This document shows positions 4 to 29,285 of a DNA stretch of 64,000 nucleotides, piece by piece. The stretch spans positions 62,001-126,000 of the forward strand of contig NZ_FMKA01000005.1 of NCBI RefSeq assembly GCF_900096945.1, in the 5' to 3' direction. The stretch is from Anaerobium acetethylicum. Its GTDB lineage: Bacteria; Bacillota; Clostridia; Lachnospirales; Lachnospiraceae. The translations under genes and the position numbers were made by a program. The notes under the pieces are model-generated. The model saw only the letters and a program-made list of their open reading frames with translations, was not told the DNA's origin and ran no database searches. Numbering within the stretch: the first letter of the stretch is position 1; every line of letters starts with the position of its first letter.

Positions 4-46
4 TGTGCAAATTGACTAAGCCGAACGTTACAAGAGGGCTTTTGAT
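4..46. repeat. End of a palindromic repeat element (family A)
   Basis: The first bases repeat the right-hand end of the family A element found at 9768-9806 and 9984-10025: 'gtgcaaattgacta', then 'gttacaagagggctttt'. Only this end lies inside the window, so the rest of the element must be to the left. Confidence 0.75.
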
Positions 47-166
47 TCTTTTTAAATAAAAGACGCCATACTTCTGTCTGAGGAATAACAGACATAAAAT
101 AACTAAAAACCAACCATGAAAACATGCGAAACAGACATAAATAGAATGAAAACCAACAGAATATGG

Positions 167-1960: not shown

Positions 1961-2656
1961 ATGGAAATCAATGAACAGCTGATTGAACAGATAGCGAAAA
2001 TCGTGTTAGAACAGATCAATGGAAAACCAGAGCCGGCAGCTGCCAGTACATGCACATGCGGCGGACAGCCGGGGAAATGCAACGGAAGCTGTGCGGGGAA
2101 AAAATCTCCGGCAGTTAAAACTTCATATGAAGGCTATGCCCCCGCAAAGAAGGGTACGGATCCTAAAGAAGTGGTAGTGGGTGTTGGACCGGCTTTTCAG
2201 AAAGAAATCAGAAATACAATAAACGGACTGAATCTGGATGATGTAATCGGGAACATCAAAGCTGGAATCGAAGAAGAAGGCATGGTTCCAAGGGTGGTGA
2301 AAGTGCTGAAGACCTCCGATGTCTGTTTTATGGGCCTGGAAGCGGCAAAGATAAGCGGCTCCGGTATTGGAATAGGCCTGCAGTCTAAAGGGACTGCGGT
2401 AATCCACCAGAAGGACCTTTATCCGCTTTCAAATCTCGAATTGTTTCCGCAGGCACCTCTGATGACTCTGGAAACCTACAGGGCCATCGGAAAAAATGCT
2501 GCGAAATATGTCAAAGGTGAAAAGGTCTCTCCTATTGAAGGACAGAACGATCCCATGGTCAGGGCTAAATACCAGGTCAAGGCTGCACTGATGCATATCA
2601 AGGAAACAGAACAGGTGGACGTATCAAGACCTATCATTGAATGGACGGAGGCGTAA
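1961..2656 (+). CDS. pduD: B12-dependent diol dehydratase, medium subunit with encapsulation-type N-terminus
   Basis: Beta subunit (231 residues) that with PduC forms the cobalamin pocket. The first 19 residues (MEINEQLIEQIAKIVLEQI) form an amphipathic helix very like the signal that targets PduD into the propanediol microcompartment. A linker with four cysteines follows (CTC, GKC, GSC; residues about 31-45), and then the conserved core from about residue 65. A cysteine-rich linker is not a standard feature of the family as I know it. It lies 40 bases after pduC and ends 5 bases before the chosen pduE start. No shell-protein genes are seen in the window. Confidence 0.94.
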   Translation: MEINEQLIEQIAKIVLEQINGKPEPAAASTCTCGGQPGKCNGSCAGKKSPAVKTSYEGYAPAKKGTDPKEVVVGVGPAFQKEIRNTINGLNLDDVIGNIKAGIEEEGMVPRVVKVLKTSDVCFMGLEAAKISGSGIGIGLQSKGTAVIHQKDLYPLSNLELFPQAPLMTLETYRAIGKNAAKYVKGEKVSPIEGQNDPMVRAKYQVKAALMHIKETEQVDVSRPIIEWTEA

Positions 2657-2661
2657 GCGAA

Positions 2662-3054
2662 ATGAGATATCCTTTAGGTGAGTATGAAAAAGACTCTATT
2701 CGTTCCAAGACGGGAAAAAAATTAAGCCAGATCACACTGGATGAAATAAAAAGAGGAAACGTAACTGCTGACGATATAAAAATTTCAAAGGAAATGCTTC
2801 ATAAACAAGGGCAGGTCGCGAAAGAAGCAGACAATCCTGAACTGGCAGGAAATTTTGAAAGAGCATCGGAAATGGTTGACATTCCTGACGAGGTCATTCT
2901 GGACATGTACAACAGGCTGAGGCCGAACCGATCAACAAAACTGGAGCTTGTGACAATGGCAAAAGAGCTGATTGACAACTATCAAGCTGTAAATTGCGCA
3001 AAACTGGTGATGGAGGCGGCAGAAATTTACGAGAAAAGGGGAATCCTTCTTTGA
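2662..3054 (+). CDS. pduE: B12-dependent diol dehydratase, small subunit
   Basis: Gamma subunit (130 residues), completing the alpha2-beta2-gamma2 dehydratase. I chose the ATG at 2662 (protein begins MRYPLGEY) because 'ggagg' lies at 2647-2651 and the in-frame ATG at 2641 lies inside the pduD end. The C-terminal segment with 'MYNRLRPNRST' followed by an acidic helix is characteristic of PduE/DhaE. Its stop overlaps the TTG start of pduG. Confidence 0.93.
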   Translation: MRYPLGEYEKDSIRSKTGKKLSQITLDEIKRGNVTADDIKISKEMLHKQGQVAKEADNPELAGNFERASEMVDIPDEVILDMYNRLRPNRSTKLELVTMAKELIDNYQAVNCAKLVMEAAEIYEKRGILL

Positions 3055-4868
3055 AACTGATTGCAGGCGTGGATATCGGCAATTCAACAACAGAAGTGTG
3101 CATCGGCGAAATCGGCGGTGACGGGAAGATGCGCTTTTTATCCTCTTCATCAGTAATGACGACGGGAATGAAGGGCACTGTTGCCAATACTGCAGGCGTC
3201 ATACATGCGCTGGACGCTGCAATGGGGAAAATCAACAGACCTGTGAGTGAGATCAGCCTGATACGCATAAATGAAGCGGCGCCTGTAATCGGAGACACTG
3301 CGATGGAGACGATTACGGAGACGATCATCACGGAATCTTCCATGATCGGACACAATCCGTCGACTCCGGCGGGAGCAGGGCAGGCGGCAGGCACGATCAT
3401 CTATATTGGTCATCTTCCGGAAGGAAAACCGGGAATTCCCTACATTGTAACGGCAAGCAGCCTTTCAGCATATGACGAGGTAGCTGATGTTATCAACCGT
3501 TATGCAAAGAAGCTCGATATTGCCGGATTGATTCTCCAGGCGGATGAAGCAGTGCTTGTGGAGAACCGGCTGGAGCACAAAATTCCGATTGTAGATGAAG
3601 TGAAAAGCATAAACAGCATTCCGGAATGGAAAATGGCAGCAATAGAAGTTGCCCTCCCGGGACAGTCTGTACGCATGCTTTCCAATCCGTATGGAATAGC
3701 AACGCTGCTGAAACTGGATGCAGACGAGACCAAAGCTGCAACTCCTATTGCAAAAAGCCTGATAGGAAAGAGGAGCGCAGTGGTCATCCGCACCCCCCAC
3801 GGAAATGTAAAAGAGAATGTTCTGCCGGCCGGTGAGCTATATGTGAAGTCTGATCAGGTCTATCCGGTTAATATAGATTCCGGTGCTGACAGGATTATGG
3901 AGGTACTTGGGCAAGCGGGCGAAGTAATAGATATCAGCGGACAGCCGGATACGAATATCGGCAATATGCTGATCAATATAAAGAACGGAATGGGGAACCT
4001 GATGGGTGAAGAATCTGGTGAAATCAGGATTACTGACATTCTGGCTGTTGACACGCTGGCTCCTGTGCAGATTTCCGGTTCACTTGCAGGAGAATCCTGC
4101 ATGGAAAAGGCAGTAGGAGTTGCAGCCATGGTGAAGACAAAGCACCTCCCTATGGAAAAGATTGCAGATGAACTGAAAAGACGTCTGCACATCTATGTGA
4201 AGGTGGCCGGAGTGGAAGCGGTAATGGCGGCACTGGGAGCGCTTACAACCCCTGGGACACGACTTCCCCTTGCCATGCTGGATCTTGGAGGCGGGTCTAC
4301 CGATGCGGCAGTCATCGACAGTGACGGCCGGGTAAAGACCACCCATAAAGCAGGGGCTGGAGAGCTCGTATCAATGATCATCCAGACGGAACTTGGACTT
4401 TCGAGCAGGCATACTGCGGAGCAGATCAAGAAATATCCCCTTGCAAAGGTTGAGAGCCTTTTTCATATGAGGCTCGAAAATGGAGCTATGCATTTTTTTG
4501 AAAATGCAATAGAACCGAAATATTTTGGAAATGTTGTTCTCCTTCATCCAGAGGAGATGGTTATCATTGACGAAGACATTCCCCTTGAGAAAATTGCAGC
4601 AGTTCGGAAAGACGCTAAGCGAAAGGTGTTTGTCAGGAATGCACTCAGGGCACTGACAGAAATTGCACCTGGACATAATCTGAGAAATATCCCGAATGTA
4701 GTGCTGGTCGGCGGTTCGGCTGAGGATTTTGAAGTGCCGGAAATGCTGATGGAGGAACTGGCCAACTATAAGATCGTATGCGGACGAGGAAATATCAGAG
4801 CATCAGAGGGGCCTAGAAATGCCGTTGCGACGGGGCTGGTTCTGTCATATACAGGGGGGCAGCAATGA
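3051..4868 (+). CDS. pduG: Diol dehydratase reactivating factor, large subunit
   Basis: ATP-dependent chaperone that releases damaged cobalamin from inactivated dehydratase. The 605-residue protein has the two phosphate motifs of the actin/Hsp70 fold: 'VDIGNSTTEV' near the N-terminus and 'LDLGGGSTDAAV' past the middle. A longer reading from 2994 is possible, but TTG at 3051 is the better start: it overlaps the pduE stop (TTGA), is preceded by 'aaaagggg', and begins directly with the family N-terminus (MKLIAGVDIGN). It is translationally coupled on both sides. Confidence 0.95.
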   Translation: MKLIAGVDIGNSTTEVCIGEIGGDGKMRFLSSSSVMTTGMKGTVANTAGVIHALDAAMGKINRPVSEISLIRINEAAPVIGDTAMETITETIITESSMIGHNPSTPAGAGQAAGTIIYIGHLPEGKPGIPYIVTASSLSAYDEVADVINRYAKKLDIAGLILQADEAVLVENRLEHKIPIVDEVKSINSIPEWKMAAIEVALPGQSVRMLSNPYGIATLLKLDADETKAATPIAKSLIGKRSAVVIRTPHGNVKENVLPAGELYVKSDQVYPVNIDSGADRIMEVLGQAGEVIDISGQPDTNIGNMLINIKNGMGNLMGEESGEIRITDILAVDTLAPVQISGSLAGESCMEKAVGVAAMVKTKHLPMEKIADELKRRLHIYVKVAGVEAVMAALGALTTPGTRLPLAMLDLGGGSTDAAVIDSDGRVKTTHKAGAGELVSMIIQTELGLSSRHTAEQIKKYPLAKVESLFHMRLENGAMHFFENAIEPKYFGNVVLLHPEEMVIIDEDIPLEKIAAVRKDAKRKVFVRNALRALTEIAPGHNLRNIPNVVLVGGSAEDFEVPEMLMEELANYKIVCGRGNIRASEGPRNAVATGLVLSYTGGQQ

Positions 4869-5200
4869 TTATCAACAGACCTTCAATTAGAATCTATACC
4901 TGCCATGCAGATCGTGATATATTGAAAGAAATTTGTGCGGGAATTGAAGAAGAAGGCGTTCTGTACGAAATAGAGGAACGTCAGGAAACAGAACTGGATG
5001 TTCTCTGCTATGATGCAGCAAATGAATCAGTTCTGGGAACGGGAGTGGGCGTGGCATTCTCTGAGACAGGCATGCAGATGAAGGGTGTGCCAAAAGGCAG
5101 GAATCTGTTTGAAGTCAGCAATCCGACATCGGGACAGTGCAGAATCCTGGGGGCAAATGCTGCCAGGGCTGTCAAGCGAATGCCGTTCAGGATTTTTTAG
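4865..5200 (+). CDS. pduH: Diol dehydratase reactivating factor, small subunit
   Basis: Small subunit (111 residues) of the dehydratase reactivase. It resembles the dehydratase beta-subunit fold and swaps with it during reactivation (family knowledge). The ATG overlaps the pduG stop (ATGA), as expected for subunits made in equal amounts. The conserved 'VLGTGVGVAF' and the glycine-rich 'SNPTSGQCRILGANAARAVK' agree with the family. Confidence 0.9.
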   Translation: MIINRPSIRIYTCHADRDILKEICAGIEEEGVLYEIEERQETELDVLCYDAANESVLGTGVGVAFSETGMQMKGVPKGRNLFEVSNPTSGQCRILGANAARAVKRMPFRIF

Positions 5201-9513: not shown

Positions 9514-9549
9514 AAGGATGCGGCATAAGCTGCATCCTTTTTTTGGGGG
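9514..9549 (+). terminator. Terminator of the FG-GAP-like gene
   Basis: An 11-base-pair stem 'aaggatgcggc'/'gctgcatcctt' with loop 'ataa', followed by a run of T. Confidence 0.85.
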
Positions 9550-9555
9550 TGGAGT

Positions 9556-9806
9556 GTCAAGAGCTCATTTATATAATGGTATTCGTCAATTTGCACAGGT
9601 TTTATGAATGAGGACGTGATACAAAACATGTTGATTCGCAGCGCGCTCTCGCTTAGATGAAGACGTAGTGGTACGTAAGGCCGCAAAGTACGCGACCTAA
9701 GTACCAACGTCTTCATAAAGCTGCTCATCAATTCATGTTTTGTATCACTGCGCGATAGATGGCGGCTGTGCAAATTGACTAGGCTGAAGGTTACAAGAGG
9801 GCTTTG
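9556..9806 (+). repeat. Palindromic element A, copy 1 (about 251 bp)
   Basis: The whole element is a nested inverted repeat. Outer ends are 'gtcaagagctc' and 'gagggctttga'. Next inward are 'gtcaatttgcac' (9585-9596) and 'gtgcaaattgac' (9768-9779), then 'gtgatacaaaacatg' and 'catgttttgtatcac', then 'tgaagacgt' and 'acgtcttca', with a central hairpin. A second copy in opposite orientation is at 28623-28875. No transposase is present. Confidence 0.8.
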
Positions 9807-10025
9807 AAATAAGTTGATTTGCAGTCGGGCTTGTGGTATTTGATTGACTATCGTCAATCAGCCCTCCGCACTGCAAAGTGTTTTCGCCTTCAAGTTTTGG
9901 GTTAGTGGAGCTGAAACGGCGAAACCACTTTGTTCTAAAGCTGCTCATCAATTCATGTTTTGTATCACTGCGTCATAGATGGCGGCTGTGCAAATTGACT
10001 AGGCTGAAGGTTACAAGAGGGCTTT
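9716..10025 (+). repeat. Direct repeat of about 90 bp, 220 bp apart
   Basis: Bases 9716-9805 recur at 9936-10025 with only two differences ('cg' to 'tc' after 'cactgcg'). The block is the right half of element A. The sequence between the two copies contains 'gtcgggcttgtgg' and a hairpin 'ttgattgacta'/'tcgtcaatcag', and part of it has a diverged counterpart at 28415-28445. Confidence 0.8.
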
Positions 10026-10070
10026 AAAAATAGGTTGATTCGCAGCGCGCTTTCGATCAGATGAAGACAC

Positions 10071-28179: not shown

Positions 28180-28264
28180 TGCAGTCGAAGGGACTTGAAC
28201 CCTCACGAGCGCAATGCTCACTAGATCCTTAGTCTAGCGCGTATGCCAATTCCGCCACAACTGC
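28180..28264 (-). tRNA. tRNA-Leu (anticodon AAG), copy 1
   Basis: An 85-base type II tRNA. The acceptor stem 'gcagttg' pairs with 'cgactgc', discriminator A. The anticodon stem 'ctaga'/'tctag' encloses loop 'ctaagga', giving anticodon AAG (leucine). It has a long variable arm and T arm 'gggttcaagtccc'. CCA is not encoded. Identical to the copy at 28937-29021. Confidence 0.95.
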
Positions 28265-28414: not shown

Positions 28415-28560
28415 TTGTCGGGCTTATGGTACTTGATTGACTTGTACCAGTTATTCCACCGTACAACAGAGTGTTTATGACAGTATAAAGAGTTTTGCTT
28501 GCGAAACTCTTGCTCTGATGCGCAGCCGCTTCTGCGACACACTTTTCTTGCACGTCATGC
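28415..28560 (+). repeat. Repeat modules, second locus (module C copy 2 and part of the 9.82 kb module)
   Basis: 'gtcgggcttatgg' at 28417 matches the segment at 9823, and 28470-28560 matches the reverse complement of 10071-10190. The block is non-coding and full of short hairpins, such as 'agttttgct'/'gcgaaact'. Confidence 0.6.
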
Positions 28561-28622
28561 GCCTCTTCACGGAGCATTTTTGCTATATAGGAAATTCGGG
28601 GAACTTCTATATAGACTAGCGT

Positions 28623-28875
28623 GTCAAAAGCCCTACGTAAACTCCGGCTTCGTCAATTTGCACAGTCGCCAACTATCACACAGTGATACAAAACATGAAT
28701 TGATGAGCAGCTTTATGAAGACGTTGGCACTTGGGCCGCGTATTTTGCGGCCCTATGTACCACTACGTCTTCATCTAAGCGAGAGCGCGCTGCGAATCAA
28801 CATGTTTTGCATCACGTTCTCATTCTCGAAACCCGTGCAAATTAACGAATCCAATTATGTAAATGGGCTTTTGAC
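28623..28875 (-). repeat. Palindromic element A, copy 2 (253 bp)
   Basis: Its ends are the perfect inverted repeat 'gtcaaaagccc' and 'gggcttttgac'. Inside are 'gtcaatttgcac'/'gtgcaaatt', 'gtgatacaaaacatg' and 'catgttttgcatcac', and a central hairpin 'gggccgc'/'gcggccc'. It is inverted relative to copy 1 and lies between two identical tRNA-Leu genes. No target-site duplication is obvious. Confidence 0.85.
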
Positions 28876-28895
28876 TCTCCATTCCTATAAAGCAA

Positions 28896-28936: not shown

Positions 28937-29021
28937 TGCAGTCGAAGGGACTTGAACCCTCACGAGCGCAATGCTCACTAGATCCTTAGTCTAGCGCGTA
29001 TGCCAATTCCGCCACAACTGC
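28937..29021 (-). tRNA. tRNA-Leu (anticodon AAG), copy 2
   Basis: Identical over its 85 bases to the gene at 28180-28264, with the same AAG anticodon and no encoded CCA. The two copies are 672 bases apart with the repeat mosaic between them. Confidence 0.95.
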
Positions 29022-29201: not shown

Positions 29202-29285
29202 GCAGTCGTGGCGGAATTGGCATACGCGCATGATTCAGGTTCATGTCCACGTACGTGGGTGAGGGTTCAAGTCCCTTCGACTGCA
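29202..29285 (+). tRNA. tRNA-Leu (anticodon CAG)
   Basis: An 84-base type II tRNA. The acceptor stem 'gcagtcg'/'cgactgc' and the anticodon stem 'catga'/'tcatg' with loop 'ttcaggt' give anticodon CAG. It has a long variable arm 'tccacgtacgtggg' and T arm 'gggttcaagtccc'. Confidence 0.95.

Follow-up and report, generated by a model that had tools for sequence, protein, structure and literature searches.

Two sequences of roughly 250 bp, each folding as nested inverted repeats and lying in inverted orientation to each other, occur in a 64,000-nt stretch of the Anaerobium acetethylicum genome (hereafter the window; the genome, of 4.6 Mb, is denoted G000). Their arms differ between the copies in a way that preserves the stem, and the question raised by this locus is whether they represent a mobile element or a structured RNA, and what has kept their arms paired. 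With a probability of about 0.6, we conclude that they belong to a superfamily of mobile palindromic DNA elements found in Lachnospiraceae, which are non-autonomous, built around a conserved hairpin and moved in trans.

Both copies sit where a preliminary description of this DNA had put them, and both fold far better than shuffled versions (z of -7.7 and -11.3; 0 of 200 shuffles as good). Sequence and alignment bore out the nested inverted repeats, and the inverted-repeat ends GTCAAAAGCCC were found as described; the extents first given, 9556-9806 and 28623-28875, mark the right places, but the full ends are wider (Table 1). The change in the arms is real, and in core orientation copy 1 reads AGGCCGC/GCGACCT and copy 2 GGGCCGC/GCGGCCC. 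What had been taken for a G-U type pair is G-T on the strand then read, but C-A in the conserved-core orientation, and thus by itself gives no RNA wobble signal.

Table 1. Positions of element copies, their parts and flanking duplications in the window, and of tandem core arrays elsewhere in G000
Feature	Position	Strand	Basis or remark
Third copy, right end	4..48	+	starts upstream of the window; G000:C38:61819-62042
Copy 1, full extent	9547..9819	+	right end damaged, 9819 approximate; alignment with 29 other copies, and sequence
Copy 1, conserved core hairpin	9635..9727	+	core pattern at 9646-9668 and 9704-9726, 0 mismatches; covariance model from such cores
Fragments of further copies beside copy 1	9936..10068	+	right half 9936-10040, middle piece 10027-10068; own-genome DNA search (G000:C38:71936-72040 and 72027-72068)
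Copy 2, right-end target duplication TATATAG	28607..28613	-	sequence and register test
Copy 2, full extent, 271 bp	28614..28884	-	sequence; boundary and length from register test
Copy 2, terminal inverted repeats GAATGGAGAGTCAAAAGCCC / GGGCTTTTGACACGCTAGTC	28614..28884	-	sequence
Copy 2, conserved core hairpin	28704..28796	-	core pattern at 28763-28785 and 28705-28727
Copy 2, left-end target duplication TTTATAG	28885..28891	-	6/7 match to right-hand duplication
Core tandem array	G000:C21:12356-12985		period ~187 bp
Core tandem array	G000:C41:52410-53161		period ~178 bp
Core tandem array	G000:C59:97791-98141		period ~164 bp
Core tandem array	G000:C34:14543-14883		period ~159 bp
Core tandem array	G000:C41:7082-7400		period ~148 bp

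In the window sequence, a second palindrome, TATATAGAAGTTCC..GAATTTCCTATATA, starts with the right-end duplication of copy 2, and copy 2 seems to have been inserted into it. This region (28470-28613, minus strand) is a second dispersed repeat, consisting of a 30-40-bp palindrome, TATATAG..CTATATA, and then a module resembling GCTCCGCGAGGAGGCGCATGACGCGCAAGAAG; several element copies are flanked by this repeat, which appears to act as a target for insertion. Copy 2 lies between two tRNA genes on the same strand (28180-28264 and 28937-29021), identical in the alignment shown, and a third similar tRNA gene is found on the opposite strand at 29202-29285. At 9820-10068, a different hairpin module, CAGTCGGGCTTGTGG..GCAAAGTG, is joined to copy 1. 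Because this module is also inserted within other element copies (loci L098 and L101), the repeats form nested mosaics.

Instead of only two copies, a census of G000 with a 23-base core pattern, allowing up to three mismatches, returned 148 copies of the core hairpin (none with the reversed pattern), and these copies come with the strong covariation described below. A DNA search of the same genome gave 72 matches from 40 scored candidates. Cores also occur in tandem arrays, whose periods vary among arrays between ~148 and 189 bp.

The core is an imperfect hairpin, in which an outer stem is followed by a 5' side bulge RCGCTYTCGCTY, a stem, CGYARCGGTAC(A)TAAG and a 7-bp stem, and then by the loop AAANNAC, (T)AAGTACCGRCG and a stem. 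Its unpaired motifs, namely the side bulge, the AG and (A)TA/AA internal loops and the terminal loop, are constant across genera, while the letters of the stems change completely, even between copies of one genome. Among 43 cores from ~35 genera, 94.2% of cells pair, and 26 of 28 pairs show double changes, which fill 329 cells where shuffles give 92; related rows in this set are not independent. The covariation score was 0.724 (0.215 when shuffled) and reached at most 0.13 with slid partners, a comparison that favours the real version, as the tested structure was drawn from one of the 43 cores, although the margin is large. Within G000 alone covariation is modest (13 pairs vs 7.2; score 0.077 vs 0.061). 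In genome G222 the copies keep the same core but differ from one another in the outer stem, which is 20-30 bp long. Strong covariation across genera, together with conserved unpaired motifs, supports selection on the pairing. Of the preliminary proposal of selection on a folded DNA or RNA, the pairing is thus supported on many copies, with double changes far above shuffles, and the RNA part is unsupported.

In G000 and in one relative, genome G181, the core lies within an element of 270-274 bp with terminal inverted repeats, which are GGTTYGGGTGTCAAAAGCCC in G181 and GAGTGGAGTGTCAAAAGCCC / GATTAGCGTGTCAAAAGCCC in G000, where those of the 271-bp element end in GTGTCAAAAGCCC. Ten near-identical copies in G181 share these common ends and are flanked by 7-bp direct repeats. 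In a register test, 77 of 84 flanking positions in G181 matched at 7 bp, compared with 44.6 after shuffling, and nothing was seen at 6 or 8 bp; an 8-bp duplication, read by eye, was accordingly replaced by one of 7 bp. For 24 copies in G000 the match was 112 of 168 positions at 7 bp, compared with 80.1, and again register-specific. In these two genomes, the only ones in which target duplications were tested statistically, 0 of 2000-5000 shuffles were as good. Mobility in G000 and G181 is thus supported by target duplications, and the earlier suggestion of a non-autonomous mobile element agrees with dispersed copies, terminal inverted repeats, 7-bp duplications and lack of coding capacity. When the flanks of the 24 G000 copies were joined, 7 insertions fell within another palindrome (0 of 24 upstream controls), and 14 of the 24 copies have a T-run upstream, so that they often stand behind an intrinsic terminator. 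No empty site was shown for the G181 insertions, the nearest relatives compared belonging to other genera.

Element ends vary between genera. Judged by eye only, five copies from a genome labelled Blautia differ in their ends, TAGGTAATTGCGAAAC, and have direct repeats of ~10 bp. In genome G053 seven of the eight copies (L172-L179) have other ends in common, CTGCAGTTTA, and their starts practically coincide with the stop codon of the reading frame that precedes them. The near-identical copies in G181 and G053 imply recent spread. Convergent pairs of cores (plus and then minus), 150-350 nt apart, were found at ten or more loci; many cores elsewhere are arranged in this way, which is not the usual pattern in G000.

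Weak matches in two other genera have the central hairpin alone in common, embedded in long hairpins of unrelated sequence. A covariance model of this ~93-nt core, searched in 397 sampled Lachnospiraceae genomes, detected it in 120 genomes from 106 genera, many with at least ten copies, ten being the largest number scored for any genome; ~70% of the sampled genomes have no detectable core, and copy number differs strongly between relatives. A second covariance model, applied to 398 genomes across the phylum, found five carriers, four of them in Lachnospiraceae. The single carrier outside the family (L216, G769:C14:12311-12413) has the same fold and could reflect transfer or contamination. Named records carrying the core are mostly Lachnospiraceae; some titled Muribaculum or Gastranaerophilales are metagenome-assembled genomes of one project and may be misnamed. 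The exact core pattern had no match among the viral contigs of IMG/VR, which argues against viral carriage.

These properties place the element near several known systems. QMITE2 of Coxiella burnetii is short, non-coding and intergenic and has a stable fold, terminal inverted repeats and 7-9-bp direct repeats (PMC10969869), and the Lachnospiraceae element resembles such miniature inverted-repeat transposable elements (MITEs) in all these respects, being non-coding, with terminal inverted repeats at both ends and a fixed 7-bp target duplication (G181, G000). Unlike QMITE2, its centre is a hairpin conserved in more than 100 genera with covarying stems, and its ends differ between genera; unlike a typical MITE, no parent insertion sequence with the same ends was found (end sites in G181; IS256 and ISL3 in G000 and G181). 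REP sequences and REPINs, which depend on RAYT (TnpA-REP), are dispersed palindromes of 20-40 bp with conserved short motifs and variable stems (PMC3116915, PMC8266576), features shared here along with convergent pairs in many genomes, whereas the Lachnospiraceae core is ~93 nt long, 7-bp duplications are present and most carriers lack a Y1 transposase. Terminal inverted repeats and 7-bp duplications hence make this a non-autonomous mobile element of MITE- or REPIN-like type. BIME, BOX, RUP and related mosaic repeats between genes are likewise modular and nested, and form tandem or mosaic arrays beside genes and terminators. Those mosaics are known from only a few species, whereas the present core spans a bacterial family. 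Integron attC sites are DNA hairpins whose stem sequence varies and whose recognition rests on structure and extrahelical bases; in attC the outer ends are conserved and the centre varies, while the present element has a conserved centre and variable ends.

If the main reading holds, an enzyme supplied in trans, presumably a transposase, would move the element, making staggered cuts 7 bp apart in its target, frequently at other hairpins and beside terminators. The core would be recognised as a folded single strand or a cruciform; its stems are free in sequence, and pairing and unpaired motifs alone are kept. We propose only tentatively the more specific version, in which an undescribed Lachnospiraceae enzyme, acting in trans, recognises and moves a family-wide lineage of mobile DNA in its folded hairpin form, reading unpaired motifs and not stem sequence. 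Several candidates for the enzyme were searched. Of 38 element-bearing relatives, 24 have no Y1 transposase, and no core lies within the 12 kb examined around the one Y1 transposase of G000; a RAYT/IS200 partner is therefore not required. IS256 and ISL3 transposases were searched in G000 and G181 and are absent from both, which rules against them as mobilisers there. The preliminary description had suggested looking for a transposase with matching ends, and none was found in G181: among the end sites checked there was no autonomous element with the same ends, and single-ended sites run into host genes. In larger composites with a core on either side (L256, L270), no transposase was seen among the open reading frames that separate the cores.

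Other processes could give paired arms. If the core were transcribed and acted as RNA, either in regulation or as a guide for its own mobility, selection would be on the RNA fold. The very strong covariation and the conservation of bulges and loops would suit this, as would copies within transcripts: L079 and L097 lie between the terminator of an apparent T-box leader and its aminoacyl-tRNA synthetase gene, and hence inside the read-through transcript. However, G-U is far less disruptive than A-C in RNA helices, and G-T is no commoner than A-C among mismatches at well-aligned pairs, with 11 against 14 across genera, 44 against 41 within G000, and 55 against 55 when pooled (an 86-row fitted alignment was left out, since its stem 2 was misaligned). 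The core also shows no preferred orientation relative to neighbouring genes (18 vs 20), occurs in tandem and convergent arrays, and matches no Rfam family above its gathering score. G-T/A-C parity and the lack of gene orientation point, if indirectly, to folding or recognition in DNA. As far as sequence can tell, the pairing thus looks DNA-level rather than RNA, and we consider the structured RNA family named in the preliminary description very unlikely.

Pairing at the DNA level could also be produced by mutation and not by selection, if the arms were corrected against each other during replication by quasi-palindrome template switching, which would make double changes in one step. Changes are nearly all from Watson-Crick to Watson-Crick with few intermediates, and in genomes G385 and G222 the arms differ among copies of one genome yet remain complementary, as such correction predicts. 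It would, however, also erase the asymmetric bulges and internal loops that are conserved across genera, and would not by itself explain the spread to 106 genera; arm correction may act on the outer arms, and as a full account it is unlikely. Slightly less probable still is a role in cis for the cell, such as protein, gyrase or nucleoid binding, or protection of transcript ends as proposed for BIMEs, with mobility only its origin. Copies are intergenic (51 of 55 scorable ones), stand beside terminators and form tandem or convergent mosaics, and G222 still carries old copies that have each diverged on their own, all of which a cis role would explain; but most sampled genomes of the family have no detectable copy, copy number is strongly variable between relatives, and the target duplications point to insertion. 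The reading as mobile palindromic DNA elements moved in trans is therefore the one we prefer.

Elements of this kind are already known. A literature search on Lachnospiraceae palindromic repeats or MITEs returned nothing relevant among open-licence papers, and neither Rfam nor the open-licence literature searched appears to describe this family, its conserved core or how widely it occurs. Lachnospiraceae are a dominant gut family, and a hairpin family with up to ~150 copies per genome in about a third of sampled species, absent from Rfam, amounts to a sizeable unannotated share of intergenic DNA. Near-complete covariation without wobble bias offers a natural case in which to study folding at the DNA level, whether by single-strand or cruciform recognition or by arm correction, and the hairpin family provides a well-defined starting point in the search for the missing transposase.
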